Assembly: GCF_019397265.1 (NCBI RefSeq)
Contig: NZ_CP068985.1
Coordinates: 930,001 to 994,000 of the forward strand
Direction: 5' to 3'
Origin: Nonomuraea coxensis DSM 45129
GTDB taxonomy: Bacteria > Actinomycetota > Actinomycetes > Streptosporangiales > Streptosporangiaceae
DNA: 64,000 nt
Positions 30,099-37,640 of the stretch are shown piece by piece. Under the pieces are notes generated by a model that made no database searches, was not told the origin of the DNA, and saw only the letters and a list, made by a program, of their open reading frames with translations. A program made the position numbers and the translations under genes. Position 1 is the first letter of the stretch. Each line of letters opens with the position of its first letter.

Positions 30099-31043
30099 TC
30101 ATGCGAGGGTCTGCCAGGCCAGGTTCGCGGCGCCGGCCAGTGAGGCGCGGACGCCGAGCGTGCTCTGCCTGACCCGCACCGCCCGGACGAAGGCGAGCCC
30201 CGCCACGTCGTCGAGCGCCCGTTCCAGCGGCTCGAACAGCACCTTCCCCGCGCCCGACACGCCTCCTCCCACGACCACGGTGCTGACCTCGACCGCCGCC
30301 GCCGTGGACGCGATCATCCCGGCCAGAGCCCGGGCCCCGCGCTCGAACGCGGCCACCGCCACAGGCTCCCCGGCCACCGCGGCCGCGGCGAGCAACCGCG
30401 CATCCACCTTCTCCACACCGGCCTGCCCTGCCGCACCTGCCTGCTCCGCCGGGTCGGTCGCCGGCGTCCAGCCGTTGGCCAAGGCCCAGCGGACGAGGTT
30501 GGGGCCGCTGGCATAGTGCTCCACGCAGCCACGCCCGCCGCACGTGCAGCGTTCGCCGTACGGGTCGATGCTCATGTGCCCGACATGTCCGGCGTTCCCG
30601 GTGGGGCCGAGGATCGGGGCGCCGCCGATCACCAGCCCGCCGCCGATCCCGGTGGACACGACGATCCCGAGCAGCGAGTCGCTGCCCCGGCCCGCGCCGA
30701 GCCAGTGCTCGCCGAGCGCGAAGCACTGCGCGTCGCCCGCCAGCACCGTGGGCAGGCCCGTCACCTTCCGCACCTCGTCCCGCAGGGGGAACCCGCGCCA
30801 GCTCGGCATGTTGACCGGACTCACGGTGCCGGTGGCGAGGTCCAGCGGCCCGGCGCACCCGATCCCGACCGCGACCGCCGGCGGCCCGCCGCCGGTCACC
30901 TCCTCGATCAACGCCGCCAAGGCGGTCATGACGTCCGTACGCGGCGTGGGCCGGGTGCCGGAACGCAACGCGGACCCCTCCTCGTCCACCAGCGCGGCGG
31001 CGAGCTTGGTCCCTCCGATGTCTATGGCGAGTACGCAGGTCAT
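30099..31043 (-). CDS. ROK-family sugar kinase
   Basis: ROK protein of 314 aa without a DNA-binding N-terminus, so it is a kinase rather than a repressor. The ATP site is LAIDIGGTKLAAALVD (about residues 5-20). The zinc-binding motif CTCGGRGCVE and its upstream His (GHVGHM) are intact. It probably phosphorylates glucose, mannose or an amino sugar in the cytoplasm. GGAGGTAT lies upstream of the ATG. The TnpB element begins about 18 bases before the gene. Without the element this gene would follow the mannosidase and PpiC-like genes in the same orientation, which suggests it handles mannose released by the GH38 enzyme. Confidence 0.87.
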   Translation of the reverse strand: MTCVLAIDIGGTKLAAALVDEEGSALRSGTRPTPRTDVMTALAALIEEVTGGGPPAVAVGIGCAGPLDLATGTVSPVNMPSWRGFPLRDEVRKVTGLPTVLAGDAQCFALGEHWLGAGRGSDSLLGIVVSTGIGGGLVIGGAPILGPTGNAGHVGHMSIDPYGERCTCGGRGCVEHYASGPNLVRWALANGWTPATDPAEQAGAAGQAGVEKVDARLLAAAAVAGEPVAVAAFERGARALAGMIASTAAAVEVSTVVVGGGVSGAGKVLFEPLERALDDVAGLAFVRAVRVRQSTLGVRASLAGAANLAWQTLA

Positions 31044-31061
31044 CAGATACCTCCGAGGAGA

Positions 31062-32425
31062 CCCCCGCCTTCAGGCGGGGAAGGAATCGGACTCCTGCCG
31101 GGCAGGGCAGGAGCAGGCGATACGCCGTCAGGCGGACCGCCGTCTTTCGGAATCGGCCGGTGCGCAAGCGATCTCGTACAGAGAATCCAAAGGTGGCGCA
31201 GCTGGTGAAGCGGGCCTACAAGTACCGCTTCCACCCGACTCCCGAGCAGGCCGGAGAGCTTGTCCGGACGTTCGGTTGCGTGCGCCTGGTGTACAACAAG
31301 GCCCTGGAGGAGCGGACCCGCGCCTACACCCAGGAAGGCCGAGGTGTCTCCTACGCCAAGTCGTCGGCCGCGCTGACCGCGTGGAAGAAGACGCCGAAGC
31401 TGGCGTTCTTGTGCGAGGTGTCGTCGGTGCCGTTGCAGCAGACGCTGCGACATCTGCAGGCTGGCTTCGCGAACTTCTTCGCCAAACGCGCCAAGTACCC
31501 GACGTTCAAGAGCAGGAAGAGGTCGCGGGCGTCGGCCGAGTACACCCGCTCGGCGTTCCGCTGGCGCGACGGCCGGCTCACCCTGGCCAAGATGGGCGCG
31601 CCGCTGGACATCGTGTGGTCGCGTCCACTTCCGGAGGGGGCTGAGCCGTCCACGGTCACGGTGTCGAGGGACGCGGCGGGGCGGTGGTTCGTGTCCCTGC
31701 TGGTGGAAGAGAAGATCGCGCCGTTGGCGCCGGTCGAGCAGGCCGTCGGGGTGGACGCGGGCCTCACCATGCTGGCGACGCTGTCGTGCGCTGAGCAGAT
31801 CGTCAATCCGCGTCATGAGCGTCGTGAGCGGCGCAGGCTGGCCAAGGCGCAGCGGGCGCTGGCCCGCAAGGAGAAGGGGTCGAACAACCGGGCCAAGGCC
31901 CGGCTGAAGGTCGCACGGGTACATGCCCAAATCGCTGACCGCAGGCGCGATTACCTGCACAAGGTCACCACACGGCTGATTTCCGAGAATCAAGTGATCG
32001 CCGTGGAAGACCTGGGTGTCCGCAACCTGGTCAAGAACCGCAGGCTGGCTCGCGCCATCTCGGATGCGGGCTGGCGGGAGCTGCGCAGCATGCTGGAGTA
32101 CAAGGCTGCCTGGTACGGGCGCACCCTGGTGGTGGCGGACCGCTGGTTCCCCTCCTCCAGGTTGTGCTCGGTCTGCGGGGCCCTGCGGAACGAGATGCCG
32201 TTGAGCGTCCGTGCGTGGGCCTGTGCGTGCGGCGCGGTCCATGACCGGGACGTGAACGCGGCCAGAAACCTGCTCGCCGCCGGGCTGGCGGAGAGCTGAA
32301 ACGCCTGTGGAGCTGGTGTAAGACCTCAACGGGAGTCCTCCTCCCGGGCGGGCGGCCGGCGGTGAAGCAGGAAGACCGACCGGCGACGGTCGGAATCCCC
32401 CTCGTCACGAGGGGGAGGATGTCAA
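31062..32425 (+). mobile_element. TnpB-only IS200/IS605-family (IS1341-type) element
   Basis: The element has a tnpB gene but no tnpA, so it would need a transposase in trans. The left end has a hairpin CCCCGCC-TTCA-GGCGGGG (31063-31080) and a second stem CTCCTGCC/GGCAGGAG (31092-31099/31106-31113). The right end has CCCCCTCG-TCA-CGAGGGGG (32397-32415) followed by AGGATGTCAA (32416-32425), the form typical of this IS family. No terminal inverted repeats or target duplication are expected. The exact left boundary is uncertain by several bases. It sits between two genes that point the same way (the PpiC-like and ROK genes). Confidence 0.78.
31160..32299 (+). CDS. tnpB: TnpB RNA-guided endonuclease
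   Basis: RuvC-type nuclease of up to 379 aa, the IS605 OrfB family and ancestor of Cas12. Catalytic residues appear intact: D199 in GVDAGL, E283 in VEDLG and the final DRD at 362-364 (DRDVNAARN). The zinc finger CSVCG ... CACG (about 335-360) is complete. The N-terminal part (KRAYKYRFHPTPEQ) is canonical. GTG at 31160 is the longest start; GTGs at 31193 and 31205 agree better with the usual N-terminus. It is full length and apparently active. It should use an RNA from the 3' end of its own element to cut matching DNA. Confidence 0.88.
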   Translation: MRKRSRTENPKVAQLVKRAYKYRFHPTPEQAGELVRTFGCVRLVYNKALEERTRAYTQEGRGVSYAKSSAALTAWKKTPKLAFLCEVSSVPLQQTLRHLQAGFANFFAKRAKYPTFKSRKRSRASAEYTRSAFRWRDGRLTLAKMGAPLDIVWSRPLPEGAEPSTVTVSRDAAGRWFVSLLVEEKIAPLAPVEQAVGVDAGLTMLATLSCAEQIVNPRHERRERRRLAKAQRALARKEKGSNNRAKARLKVARVHAQIADRRRDYLHKVTTRLISENQVIAVEDLGVRNLVKNRRLARAISDAGWRELRSMLEYKAAWYGRTLVVADRWFPSSRLCSVCGALRNEMPLSVRAWACACGAVHDRDVNAARNLLAAGLAES

Positions 32426-32445
32426 CAGTGCTTGTGGTGGTTGTC
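32300..32445 (+). ncRNA. candidate omega-RNA (reRNA) scaffold and guide
   Basis: In studied TnpB systems the guide RNA covers the 3' end of tnpB and the element's right end, and its guide is the adjoining flank. Here the scaffold holds a stem CCGACCG/CGGTCGG closed by a GCGA tetraloop (32376-32393) and the right-end stem 32397-32415. The scaffold should end at TCAA (32425), and the guide would begin CAGTGCTTGTGG (32426 onward), which is host sequence. The 5' limit of the RNA is unknown and may lie inside tnpB. Confidence 0.55.
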
Positions 32446-33273
32446 GGGCTGGCGAGGGTCGCCAGGGTGTTCGAGTCCGGGCACCAGAGCGACCTTCTCG
32501 GCGCGCATCCGGTCGAGCCACCGGGCGAAGGTTCGCCGGCGGGCGGCCTGCAGCGGACCTGTCAGCCGCTGGAGCTGTGCGTGTGTGGGCATGGGTCGAG
32601 TGGCTTCTTCTTGATCCAGTGGTTGTGTCGGAAGTGGTGGTGGCGTCGCGGCGGGTGTGGCGAGGGCTACGTGCCACCCCAAGGCGTCCTGGACCGGGCC
32701 GACCAGAGTGCCGTACGGGTGGCGGGTGATGGCCTCGGCGAGGGCGGCCGGCAGCGAGGCGAGGTCCACCTGGCCGAGTGACTCCAGGTCGTCCACGGCG
32801 GCGCCTTCTGCCGCGATGCGGTCCGGGAACAGGCGGTGACGTACGTGATGAGTGCCGCTGCGCGGGCCGGCCGGCCGGGTCCGCCACGCGGAGGGGACCT
32901 CGGCGCCCGCGCCGACGTGCTCGTACATCGCGCGCACCCACGGGCTGCCGTTGTAGGCGGCGGCGTTGATCGAGCCCAGTTCGACGGCTGCCAGGCGGTC
33001 GAGGGGCGGGCCTTCGAGGGGGGCCAGCCCTCCGGCCCTGGCAGTGGTCTCGCACAGGACCTCGGTCAGGATGACCTGGGTCAGCCACCTGGCCAGTTGG
33101 CGGGCCTCCGCGGTGCCCGGCGCGGGAAGGGCGGCCTTGAGGGGGCCGCGGCGAAGGCCGGCGATGCGTCGGCCGAGGAGCTCACGCGGGACCGGATGAC
33201 CGTCGACCCAGCCGATCACCTCACCGATGCCGGGCGCGGTGGCCGCCCCCGTGGCAGGAGGGCGGGAGGTCAT
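32422..33273 (-). CDS. PpiC/SurA-like parvulin-domain protein
   Basis: Protein of 283 aa. The central part has parvulin-type peptidyl-prolyl isomerase features (THHVRHRLFPD; YGTLVGPVQDALGWHVA). The N-terminal helical part may bind substrate, as in SurA-like chaperones, but there is no signal peptide. The C-terminus ends HPGDPRQPDNHHKHC. The stop codon TGA is the complement of TCA at 32422-32424, which belongs to the TCAA terminus of the TnpB element. The insertion therefore defines the end of this gene and may have replaced one or more original residues. The ATG overlaps the GH38 stop (ATGA, 33270-33273) with GGAGGTGAC upstream. Its role beside a mannosidase is unclear. Confidence 0.72.
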   Translation of the reverse strand: MTSRPPATGAATAPGIGEVIGWVDGHPVPRELLGRRIAGLRRGPLKAALPAPGTAEARQLARWLTQVILTEVLCETTARAGGLAPLEGPPLDRLAAVELGSINAAAYNGSPWVRAMYEHVGAGAEVPSAWRTRPAGPRSGTHHVRHRLFPDRIAAEGAAVDDLESLGQVDLASLPAALAEAITRHPYGTLVGPVQDALGWHVALATPAATPPPLPTQPLDQEEATRPMPTHAQLQRLTGPLQAARRRTFARWLDRMRAEKVALVPGLEHPGDPRQPDNHHKHC

Positions 33274-36200
33274 CGCGTCACCTCCAGGCGGATCGCCGGG
33301 GTGTACGTGCAGCGGCCGTACCACATGACCTTGGCCAGGGCCCAGGCGTGCCCGGCGGGCGCGTCGCCGGGGACCTGGACCGGGAACGACACCTCGGACG
33401 TCTCGCCCGCCCCCACGACGAACCCCCGGATGACCTCCGGGAGCAGGGACCAGGTGCCCCAGGGGGAGGCGAGTTGCGCCTCGCCGCGGATCTCGCCGGC
33501 GGTGGAGTTGTGCAGCCGGAGCGTGAGGGCGGCGCGGTCGCCGGGGCGCAGGCTGAGGGCGTTCGTGGCGGGGGTGACGGACAGGCCGGTGGGCCGGGCG
33601 TCGTCGGCGGTGGTGCCCTCGACGGCGGCGCCCGTGGACGGCGAGGGGCCGGGAACGGGGAGTTCGGGGAGGTCGTCGCCGACGGCGACGGTGGTGACGT
33701 CCTCGATGAGCTGGTCGCCCACGCTGGTGCGGGCGGAGACGAAGTGCAGGCCCGTGACTGGTGACGTGGGCGGGGTCACGGTCACCGGGAAACGGACGTG
33801 GCCGCCGGGAGGCAGACGGAAGGGACGCCGGGACGGGGTGGCGGCCCAGCCGTCGGGGACGCGGATGTCCACCACGCCCTCATGGTTGTCGGTGGTGAGC
33901 TGGGAGGAGAGGACCACCTCCACCTCGAACGGCCCGGTCGCGGCGGGGACGAGACCCGGCGTGATGGACACGGCGATCGGCAGGTAGCCGAGCGGCGCCG
34001 GGCCCTTGTTGTGCAGCCAGTAGCGGCTGTAGACGGGCTGGGCGACTTCGGTCGTGGCGCCGAGGTCGGGCGCCTCGGGGTGCGGGGGCGGAGCGGAGGC
34101 CAGGTAGGTGGCGACCTCGAAGCCCGTCAGGGTGAGGCCGGGAACGGGGGATCCGGCGTCTTCGCGGCTTTCGGGGCGTTCGAGCAGGTCGGCCGGGGTG
34201 AGCGTGTCGAGAGGGAGGACCGGGGAGCTGAGCTTCACCCGGGTGCCGAGACCTGTGGATTCGATCAGGCGGACGGTGACACTCCCGCCGGAGGCGGTGA
34301 CGGTGGCTGAGGTGGGGAGCCGGCCGTGGGCGAGGGGGTTGCCGGTGGACTTCAGGGTGCTCAGCAGGACGTCGCGCGGCGGGGTCACCGTCAGGAGGGA
34401 GTGTGCCGCGGGAAGGGGGCCGTCCTGCGGCTCCAGGACGCGGGGGAGCAGCGGGGTGATGTGCTCCTGCCCGCGCGCGGGCAGCCGCAGGGCGCGCCAG
34501 TCACCCTCGCCCGCCACCAGCGAGTACGCGAACTCATGCGTCCAATGCTGAAGCTGGAACCCGGAGCCGTCCGGCGTGGTGCGGCGCGGCGGGTCGAGCC
34601 AGATGCCCGAGGGCCAGCCCGTGCACGACCGCATGAGCGACAGGTGCAGCGCTCCCGACGGGTCGACGGCGAAGCCGGGCAGGCCGTAGGTGAGGAGCGC
34701 GACGGTGCGCGGGTCGAGGCGTTCGGCCCCCAGCGGGCACAGGGCCTCGATCGTGGCGTCGGCGAGGTCGGCCACCAGGTCGCCGACCGGGCCGGCGACG
34801 ATCAGGGCGGGCAGGGCACGCAGGTCGCGCAGGTCGGCGCTGGGCTGCCAGACCTCGGCGAGCGGCCGTTCGGCCGGGACCCAGACCCGGGGCGCGCCGG
34901 ACTTGATCGCGTCGAGGAAGGCCGGGTCGGCGCGCTCCAGCAGCTCGGCGGCCACCGGGTTGGTGTCGGGGCCGCCGAGGACGATGCGGACGTCCGGCAG
35001 GTTGGAGTCGACGTCGAGCCAGCCGTAGCGGGTGCCTGCCGCGGTGGACGTGGTCGCCGTCACGCCCGCCCGCGCCAGGGCCGCCACCAGGCCGCGCGCC
35101 TCCGGGGCGTCGGCGGCGGCGGGCACCACGACCTCGGCCACGCCCAGCGCCCTCGCCCCCGCCTCGCCGAGGTCGACCTTGGCCGTGGCGGACAGCCCGA
35201 ACCAGGTGTTGGCAGGATTGTCGAGCGTCCACGGGTGCTCGGCCGTGTCGACGTCGGGCAGCGCGAACCCGCGGCCCACCACCGCCCCCGCCACGTCGGA
35301 CACCGGCAGCGCCCCTTCGACGAGGGCGGGGAAACGCACCCGCAGCAGGCGGTCGGCGCCCGTGTGGTCGAGGACGCGGGTGGTGAAGTCGATCCGGTCG
35401 GAGCCGTTCAGCAGGGTGACGACCTGCTCGTAGGCGATCTCCCCGACCTGGCCGGTGACGGTGAGCCGGCTGCCGAGAGGGCTCCGCTCGGCGTGTACGG
35501 CGTGCGCCGCGGCCTCGCCGGACCCGGTGACCGCACCCGTGGGGATGAGGTGCCAAGGGCCTTCCCCCATGTCGGGATGAGTCGGGTATTCGTGGTAGAG
35601 GCGCAGCTCGTTGCCGAGCCCGGTGAGCAACTCGCGGCCGGTGGACAGATCGACGACCGAGGCCAGCGCCCCGCCCCGGGCCGGGTCGGCGCTCACCCGC
35701 CAGCGGTCGTTCGCGATGGTGGCGCCGTCGAGCGGACGCCAGGTCGCGGGCGAGCCCTCGACCACCCGGTACGACCGCCAGCCCAGCGACGGCACGTCCC
35801 GCGCGAGGAAGGTCAGCACGCCGCCCTCGGCGACGGCCGGCACCTCCGCATCCTCCGGCGACGGGCCCGCCACGGTGTGCCCCGGCGGCAGCGGCACCCG
35901 GACCAGGCCGTCACGGGCGAACGACAGCGTGTTGGTCACCACCACGCTCGGCTCCGCCAGCCCGACCTGCCCGGTGAGCGCGTCGAGCGCGTTGTCCCTG
36001 GCCGTCGCCGCCAGGTCGTACGCCTCCCGCCACCCCGTCAGCAGGTCGATGTAGACCTGGTCGGACTCGGACCCGGTGATCGCGTCGTGGTGGGCGCCGT
36101 AGGCGAGCTGCCGCCACACCTTGTCGAGCGCCGTGTGCGGGTAGCGGCCGAGGCCGAGCGCCGCCGCGAACGCCGACAGCCGCTCGGCGTCGAGCGCGGC

Positions 36201-37538
36201 CACCTCGGCGGCGCGCTGGGCCTGCTTGGTGTCGATGTAGGAGACGTCCTTGCCGGTGTAGACCGGGTTCATGTCGCGGGTCTGAGGGCTGAAGCGCGGC
36301 AGCTCGGCGCGTACGGCGTCCAGGAAGTCGCGCGGCGTCGCGCAGACGAACCGGGGCCACACGTAGCGGGCCGCCCAGGCGCGGTGGATGTCGGTGATCC
36401 ACTTGTTGGGCGGGGTGTAGTCGGTGCCGACCGGCAGCAGGACGTGCCTGGTCGCGGCCACCGGCTTGAGCGAACGGTAGAGGTCGTGGACCGCCTGGCA
36501 GGCGTCCTCCAGGGTGGGCGCGGAGTCCATCCACCAGCCCGCGGAGTAGTGGGCGGGCATGTAGTGGGTGAGCACGCCCCGCCCCGACGGCGAGATCCAC
36601 TCGAACTCGCTCGGGAACTGCATGAGGGCCGCGTCGTTCTTGGCCTCATGGAAGTTCTTGCTGATCGGGCCCCACTGGTGGAACGGGCCGCGCGCCCACG
36701 CGCTGCCGGTGAGCCCCGCCGCCGCGAGATAGCCGGGGAACTGCGGATCGTGCCCGAACACGTCGAGCTGCCAGGCGGTGCGCGGGTCCCCGCCGAGGAT
36801 GTCGCGCTGGTAGCCGATGCCGTGGACGAGGTTGCGGATCGTGGTCTCGGCGCCGGTGAGGTTGGTGTTGGGCTCGTTGTAGGTGCCGCCCACCAGCTCG
36901 GCCCGGCCCTCGGCCATGAGGGCGCGCAGGTCGGCGCGGCGCTCGGGGTGGGTGTCGAGGAACGGCTTGAGATAGTCGACCTCGGCCAGCACGAAACGGT
37001 AGTCGGGGTCGCGCAGCGCCAGCTCGATGTGCGCCTCGACCAGCGCGAACGCGTTGCGCTCCCACAGCGGCCTGGTGGTGGCGTCGGCGGAGAGCAGCTC
37101 CCACGGGCTCGTGTAGGCGGCCTGGGTGTTCCACCACACGGGGTCGTAGTGGAAGTGGGAGATCAGGTGCACGGTCCAGCCGGGCTCCTCGGCCGTGACC
37201 GTGACCTCCAGGGACTCAGCGCCGGACTCAGTGCCGGACTCAGTGCCGGACTTCGCGCCGGACTTCGCGCCGGACTTCGCGCGGCCGAGGGTCAGCACGC
37301 ACGGCACCGCCGTGCCGGGCGGGACGGCGACCTCCAGCGGCACCTCCAGGACGCCGGCCGCGTCGGCGGGGACGGTGACCGCCCCGCCCGCCAGCCGTAC
37401 GCCGTCGCCGCGCAGCTCCAGGACGGCCTCGCGGTCGGCGCGGGAGGCGAGCGTGAGACGCAGGACCTGGTGCGGGGCGGCCTCGGTGCCGACGAACAGG
37501 TCGGTCGGCTCGGCGGAGAGCAGACGGCGGGAAGGCAA
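33270..37538 (-). CDS. GH38 alpha-mannosidase, large secretion-less form
   Basis: Glycoside hydrolase family 38 enzyme of about 1422 aa, cleaving alpha-linked mannose from glycans. The zinc/catalytic motifs are HFHYDPVWW (residues 128-136), QLDVFGHDPQFPG with the nucleophile Asp, and YGAHHDAITG. C-terminal beta-sandwich domains and NEW3-like Ig domains follow (about residues 1150-1422), longer than in most bacterial GH38s. The TTG start at 37538 is chosen because GGAGG lies six bases upstream; an ATG 28 codons earlier lacks a site. No signal peptide is seen. Residues 86-109 are a tandem tetrapeptide repeat just before the catalytic domain. It heads the mannosidase-PpiC-(TnpB)-ROK operon. Confidence 0.88.
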   Translation of the reverse strand: MPSRRLLSAEPTDLFVGTEAAPHQVLRLTLASRADREAVLELRGDGVRLAGGAVTVPADAAGVLEVPLEVAVPPGTAVPCVLTLGRAKSGAKSGAKSGTESGTESGAESLEVTVTAEEPGWTVHLISHFHYDPVWWNTQAAYTSPWELLSADATTRPLWERNAFALVEAHIELALRDPDYRFVLAEVDYLKPFLDTHPERRADLRALMAEGRAELVGGTYNEPNTNLTGAETTIRNLVHGIGYQRDILGGDPRTAWQLDVFGHDPQFPGYLAAAGLTGSAWARGPFHQWGPISKNFHEAKNDAALMQFPSEFEWISPSGRGVLTHYMPAHYSAGWWMDSAPTLEDACQAVHDLYRSLKPVAATRHVLLPVGTDYTPPNKWITDIHRAWAARYVWPRFVCATPRDFLDAVRAELPRFSPQTRDMNPVYTGKDVSYIDTKQAQRAAEVAALDAERLSAFAAALGLGRYPHTALDKVWRQLAYGAHHDAITGSESDQVYIDLLTGWREAYDLAATARDNALDALTGQVGLAEPSVVVTNTLSFARDGLVRVPLPPGHTVAGPSPEDAEVPAVAEGGVLTFLARDVPSLGWRSYRVVEGSPATWRPLDGATIANDRWRVSADPARGGALASVVDLSTGRELLTGLGNELRLYHEYPTHPDMGEGPWHLIPTGAVTGSGEAAAHAVHAERSPLGSRLTVTGQVGEIAYEQVVTLLNGSDRIDFTTRVLDHTGADRLLRVRFPALVEGALPVSDVAGAVVGRGFALPDVDTAEHPWTLDNPANTWFGLSATAKVDLGEAGARALGVAEVVVPAAADAPEARGLVAALARAGVTATTSTAAGTRYGWLDVDSNLPDVRIVLGGPDTNPVAAELLERADPAFLDAIKSGAPRVWVPAERPLAEVWQPSADLRDLRALPALIVAGPVGDLVADLADATIEALCPLGAERLDPRTVALLTYGLPGFAVDPSGALHLSLMRSCTGWPSGIWLDPPRRTTPDGSGFQLQHWTHEFAYSLVAGEGDWRALRLPARGQEHITPLLPRVLEPQDGPLPAAHSLLTVTPPRDVLLSTLKSTGNPLAHGRLPTSATVTASGGSVTVRLIESTGLGTRVKLSSPVLPLDTLTPADLLERPESREDAGSPVPGLTLTGFEVATYLASAPPPHPEAPDLGATTEVAQPVYSRYWLHNKGPAPLGYLPIAVSITPGLVPAATGPFEVEVVLSSQLTTDNHEGVVDIRVPDGWAATPSRRPFRLPPGGHVRFPVTVTPPTSPVTGLHFVSARTSVGDQLIEDVTTVAVGDDLPELPVPGPSPSTGAAVEGTTADDARPTGLSVTPATNALSLRPGDRAALTLRLHNSTAGEIRGEAQLASPWGTWSLLPEVIRGFVVGAGETSEVSFPVQVPGDAPAGHAWALAKVMWYGRCTYTPAIRLEVTR
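37213..37284. repeat. in-frame 12-bp tandem repeat (6 copies) in the mannosidase gene
   Basis: Six consecutive 12-base units run 37213-37284. The plus-strand form is GACTCAGTGCCG or GACTTCGCGCCG. They encode the tetrapeptides AKSG and TESG in the linker before the catalytic domain. Units 2-3 are identical and units 4-5 are identical, which indicates recent slippage or unequal exchange. Confidence 0.9.
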
Positions 37539-37640
37539 GGGGGACCTCCGGGGTGGAGCGTGGACCTCCGAGTGGAAGGCGGACGGGTGGAAGGTGCGAG
37601 AGCGTTCCGGCGCCCGTAACACTAGGCCCTCCCGATGGCC

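Follow-up and report, generated by a model that had tools for sequence, protein, structure and literature searches.

The mobile elements closest to the one described here recognise short targets (TTGAT for ISDra2, TTAC for IS608), and insertion sequence (IS) elements such as ISEcp1 supply promoters to their neighbours. How transposons persist without harm in dense bacterial operons is an open question, to which the TnpB family described here offers a simple, testable answer. Among published systems, TldR proteins are exapted TnpB repressors (PMC13418256), and a paper on IS605 stem-loops in Borrelia is about the 3' ends of genes (PMC2775950). The papers searched contained no report that a TnpB element supplies a Shine-Dalgarno sequence (SD) from its ends or inserts at start codons. 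In a 64,000-nt stretch of Nonomuraea coxensis DSM 45129 (the window; the host genome is a single contig of 9.07 Mb), a TnpB element lies between a PpiC-like gene and a ROK-family sugar kinase gene, downstream of a GH38 alpha-mannosidase gene. The best explanation of this locus as a whole, which we hold with good confidence, is insertion into an operon at a TGATG overlap, with the two ends of the element replacing an SD and a stop codon.

The whole element (CAGATACC...GATGTCAA) occupies 31044..32425 on the + strand, limits that follow from comparing 50 copies whose flanks differ and from the empty sites of relatives. All copies of this type switch from unique flank to shared sequence directly after TCAT, which fixes the left end at 31044; the element is therefore 1382 bp long and adjoins the ROK start codon. 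A sequence-only reading of this DNA had begun the element at 31062, 18 bp too far in, because a subterminal hairpin that is kept among the copies starts there (CCCCCGCCTTCAGGCGGGG, 31062..31080, + strand). Its right end, at 32425, was exact, and that end does hold the TGA stop of the PpiC-like gene (32422..32424, - strand), where the ancestor read ...CAC TGA TG. TCAT (31040..31043, + strand), the target or transposon-adjacent motif, reads ATGA on the - strand, where it begins the ROK gene, and all of the 50 aligned copies sharing this left-end type have it next to the left end in that position. A GGAGG SD in the left end (31050..31054, - strand), 6 nt before the ROK ATG, is part of the element. 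On the gene strand the window reads CACTG / TTGACA...GGAGGTATCTG / ATGACC, the insertion splitting TG/ATG.

To read the empty site, GH38 orthologues were located in the genus and twelve Nonomuraea loci were read at the PpiC-like/ROK junction. The element was absent from all twelve, with the PpiC-like gene next to ROK, and just one of the examined species carries it at this position. In the relatives the PpiC-like protein ends in NHHKH (NNHKH at L062), and its stop overlaps the ROK start as TGATG at 11 of the 12 loci; at the other, L067, eight bases lie between them. These loci pass the check proposed with the sequence-only reading, namely relatives that lack the element, have GH38, PpiC-like and ROK genes adjacent and end the PpiC-like protein near HHKH, and they back its view that an ancestral GH38-PpiC-ROK operon was interrupted. 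The change from CAC TGA TG to CAC TGT TGA puts the PpiC-like stop one codon later and adds one Cys. No SD preceded ROK in the ancestor (CACAAGCACTGATG), which makes its coupling to the PpiC-like gene probable; GGAGG of the element now stands there. The suggestion that the kinase may rely on sequence in the left end is thus borne out at the level of sequence. Empty sites join without target duplication, apart from a 3-bp ambiguity at the window locus.

The same arrangement recurs throughout the family. The host genome has 14 full-length copies in addition to truncated copies and short end-only derivatives, and the exact pattern was found in 24 of 201 genomes and 15 of 68 genera of the family, while a reversed control gave no match. 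Left ends of the window's type (type 1) carry GGAGG in 47 of 50 copies and GGAG in one, and a second left-end type of different sequence also has TCAT together with AAGGAG at similar spacing. Scored by codon usage, gene starts made up 44 of 56 junctions (79%) versus 30 of the 280 ATGA sites of the window. Among gene-sparing ATGA sites of the window, taken from a crude gene map, 16 of 52 (31%) were starts, and the excess at junctions over these sites had a Fisher p of 5e-7. Outside the genus 30 of 37 junctions scored as starts, and in a tblastn set the same was true of 21 of the 31 loci from outside Nonomuraea whose end could be recognised; these two sets (n=37 and n=31) overlap in part.

The stop codon is rebuilt in a comparable way. 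The upstream reading frame reaches the junction in 21 copies, and in 16 of them the upstream gene had ended in an ATGA overlap and TTGA of the element restores TGA at the same codon, because the target TCAT and the right end TCAA share TCA. The last codon of these 16 changes from NNA to NNT, which is synonymous in 14 and turns Gln into His at L045 and Arg into Ser at L124. No enrichment of ATGA overlaps over plain starts was seen (16/56 element junctions versus 5/16 window starts). One copy, L072, separates ribBA (GTP cyclohydrolase II) from ribH (lumazine synthase); its flanks join without interruption in 43 of the 54 other Nonomuraea genomes and lie close together in the remainder. L045 likewise lies between the genes of a solute-binding protein and a permease, and L047 between those of a transporter ATPase and its membrane partner. 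The derivatives L047, L048, L049, L172 and L190 are about 310-340 bp and consist of the two ends only, so that the two translation signals move in elements lacking tnpB. A type-1 copy in the host genome (L040) and a type-2 copy in another species (L132) were observed at the start of apparently the same kinase gene (MTRC.QPGCTG.IEEGYC).

We propose that the element entered the GH38/PpiC-like/ROK operon where its last two genes overlapped as TGATG. The family targets TCAT, and since this is the complement of ATGA, insertion at a start codon keeps the ATG whole, next to the left end. The outward-facing SD, with its 6-nt spacer, would make up for the upstream context or translational coupling that was lost; the right end reads TTGA on the gene strand, which takes the place of the TGA lost by the upstream gene. 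With the ATG kept and SD and TGA supplied, both neighbouring proteins would thus be preserved. In the window, ROK translation would use the SD of the element, and its transcripts would arise either by read-through or within the element. The start-codon bias likely stems from selection acting after insertion at TCAT. The signals that would make the insertion neutral (start codon, ribosome-binding site and stop codon) would then be inherent in the target and in both ends of the element.

Several observations weigh against this account. About one fifth of the junctions are not scored as a start, and L070, the copy nearest to the window element at 98.7% identity, is located within a coding frame. 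Starts were called with a simple codon-usage score whose training set was four window genes, and the copies are not all independent, L185/L186 and L198/L199 being vertically shared. A sigma-70 scan gave no promoter in the left end, and a terminator scan gave a chance-level terminator only. The SD core also overlaps a CTCC/GGAG inverted repeat of the left end, and hence part of its conservation could serve transposition. This repeat and the intragenic L070 would fit an explanation that we consider unlikely, in which the element inserts at any TCAT, intragenic copies are purged, and GGAGG is just a piece of the end structure read by the transposase, with no role as an SD. However, purging alone would give about 31% starts, as at the gene-sparing sites, rather than the 79% seen. 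Two different left-end types have kept an SD, similarly spaced from the ATG, and in half of the type-1 copies an A at position 17 breaks the CTCC/GGAG pairing, yet GGAGG stays.

True targeting, by which transposition would prefer start-codon regions for features beyond TCAT such as single-stranded DNA or R-loops, would suit the very large proportion of starts in both of the separate sets scored (the 56 scored junctions and the 37 outside the genus). It is no more probable than purging, since L070 is a recent copy and intragenic, and since the bases outside TCAT are only weakly biased, as second-codon usage predicts. That the window copy has been domesticated to regulate the mannosidase operon, in the manner of TldR, is very improbable: its predicted guide does run antisense to the PpiC-like gene at the 3' end, but the RuvC residues are intact, the locus is occupied in a single species, the copy is nearly identical to L070 elsewhere, and the guide has no second match in the genome. 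An ancestral gap between the PpiC-like and ROK genes, with the element incidental, has practically no chance of being correct, since the empty sites refute it. Neither the same gap nor another gene order was found in relatives lacking the element, where the genes overlap or sit eight bases apart.

The element is a TnpB-only element of the IS200/IS605 type, with the subterminal hairpins and fixed short target of that group (IS1341-type). No Y1 transposase lies inside it; the genome has 12 Y1 matches, and the tnpB-linked ones have different ends. The tnpB gene for the RNA-guided nuclease (31193..32299, + strand; GTG start uncertain, 31193 or 31205) has the RuvC D/E/D residues intact. Its product has the RuvC-like domain and zinc finger of IS1341-type TnpB, with matches to OrfB_IS605 and Cas12f1-like_TNB (Pfam PF01385, PF07282 and PF12323), and exceeds the cut-off of NCBIfam guided_TnpB (NF040570). 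In a sub-clade marked by HDREVNAA (L039, L041, L042, L073, L074, L076, L080 and L117), Glu replaces the third RuvC Asp and the elements are still multicopy; their nuclease activity may be altered.

Covariation across 52 copies points to a structured guide RNA at the right end: the predicted omega RNA scaffold (32286..32425, + strand) has 32 consensus pairs, 15 of them with compensatory changes. The predicted guide (CAGTGCTTGTGGTGGTTGTC, 32426..32445, + strand) was placed on the model of ISDra2. In nine relatives it pairs with the TCAT-flanked empty site apart from 1-3 mismatches, and such sites would be re-cut by TnpB and its omega RNA. L059 (N. wenchangensis) and L068 lack the TCAT motif, as ROK starts with ATGG there. 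If the proposed mechanism is true, it would explain why TnpB guides derive from conserved gene ends, which keeps homing targets in relatives.

Concerning the host genes, GH38 (33270..37622, - strand; start uncertain) is the first gene of the run and overlaps the PpiC-like gene (32422..33273, - strand; ATG at 33273-33271, ancestral end HHKH plus one Cys) through ATGA, a coupling that the sequence-only reading had identified correctly, as it had the ROK gene beyond the element in the same orientation (30099..31043, - strand). ROK is intact, with 314 aa and the Pfam ROK domain, and its protein is 89% identical to that of the closest relative with an empty site. The name PpiC-like is a weak label, as Pfam gave only DUF7158 at the N-terminus, beside which there was a marginal SurA match (E 0.027). 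Its last 18 codons (32426-32480) are nearly invariant in DNA across the genus, with the rare codons CCT, GAA, GGA and AAA preserved, a pattern suggestive of a function at the RNA level where the gene meets ROK.

More distant relatives differ in their junctions. By eye, tnpA+tnpB relatives in the same genome adjoin CTAC and Rhodococcus relatives (L280, L282 and L283) apparently adjoin TTGAT, and neither has GGAGG before the junction, so the start-codon habit looks derived in this clade; at L283, TTGAT possibly makes the TGA stop of the preceding gene. We lean towards the view that an actinobacterial TnpB clade evolved translation-silent insertion, combining a start-codon target, a left end acting as a portable ribosome-binding site, and restoration of the stop by the right end, so that the elements can sit even in operons such as that for riboflavin synthesis.

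Compared with known systems, the element resembles TldR in that a TnpB homologue stands beside a host gene, but it is mobile and multicopy; identity with TldR was rejected on the intact D/E/D residues and the want of a stable operon association. IStrons, which combine a group I intron with TnpB, are likewise TnpB elements made neutral within genes, but they splice out as RNA, whereas here neutrality would come from replaced translation signals; an Rfam scan of 30900-33400 gave no group I intron, with nothing credible at a loose threshold, and this identity was rejected too. As in ISEcp1-type elements, an element end would help to express the adjoining gene, by giving a ribosome-binding site and a stop codon instead of a known promoter. 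ISDra2 and IS608 come closest, sharing TnpB, subterminal hairpins, a right-end omega RNA, a right end of TCAA, insertion on the 3' side of a short target and an exactly restored empty site. The family described here differs from them in its target TCAT, in having no transposase in the element, and in the outward SD and the copies at start codons.
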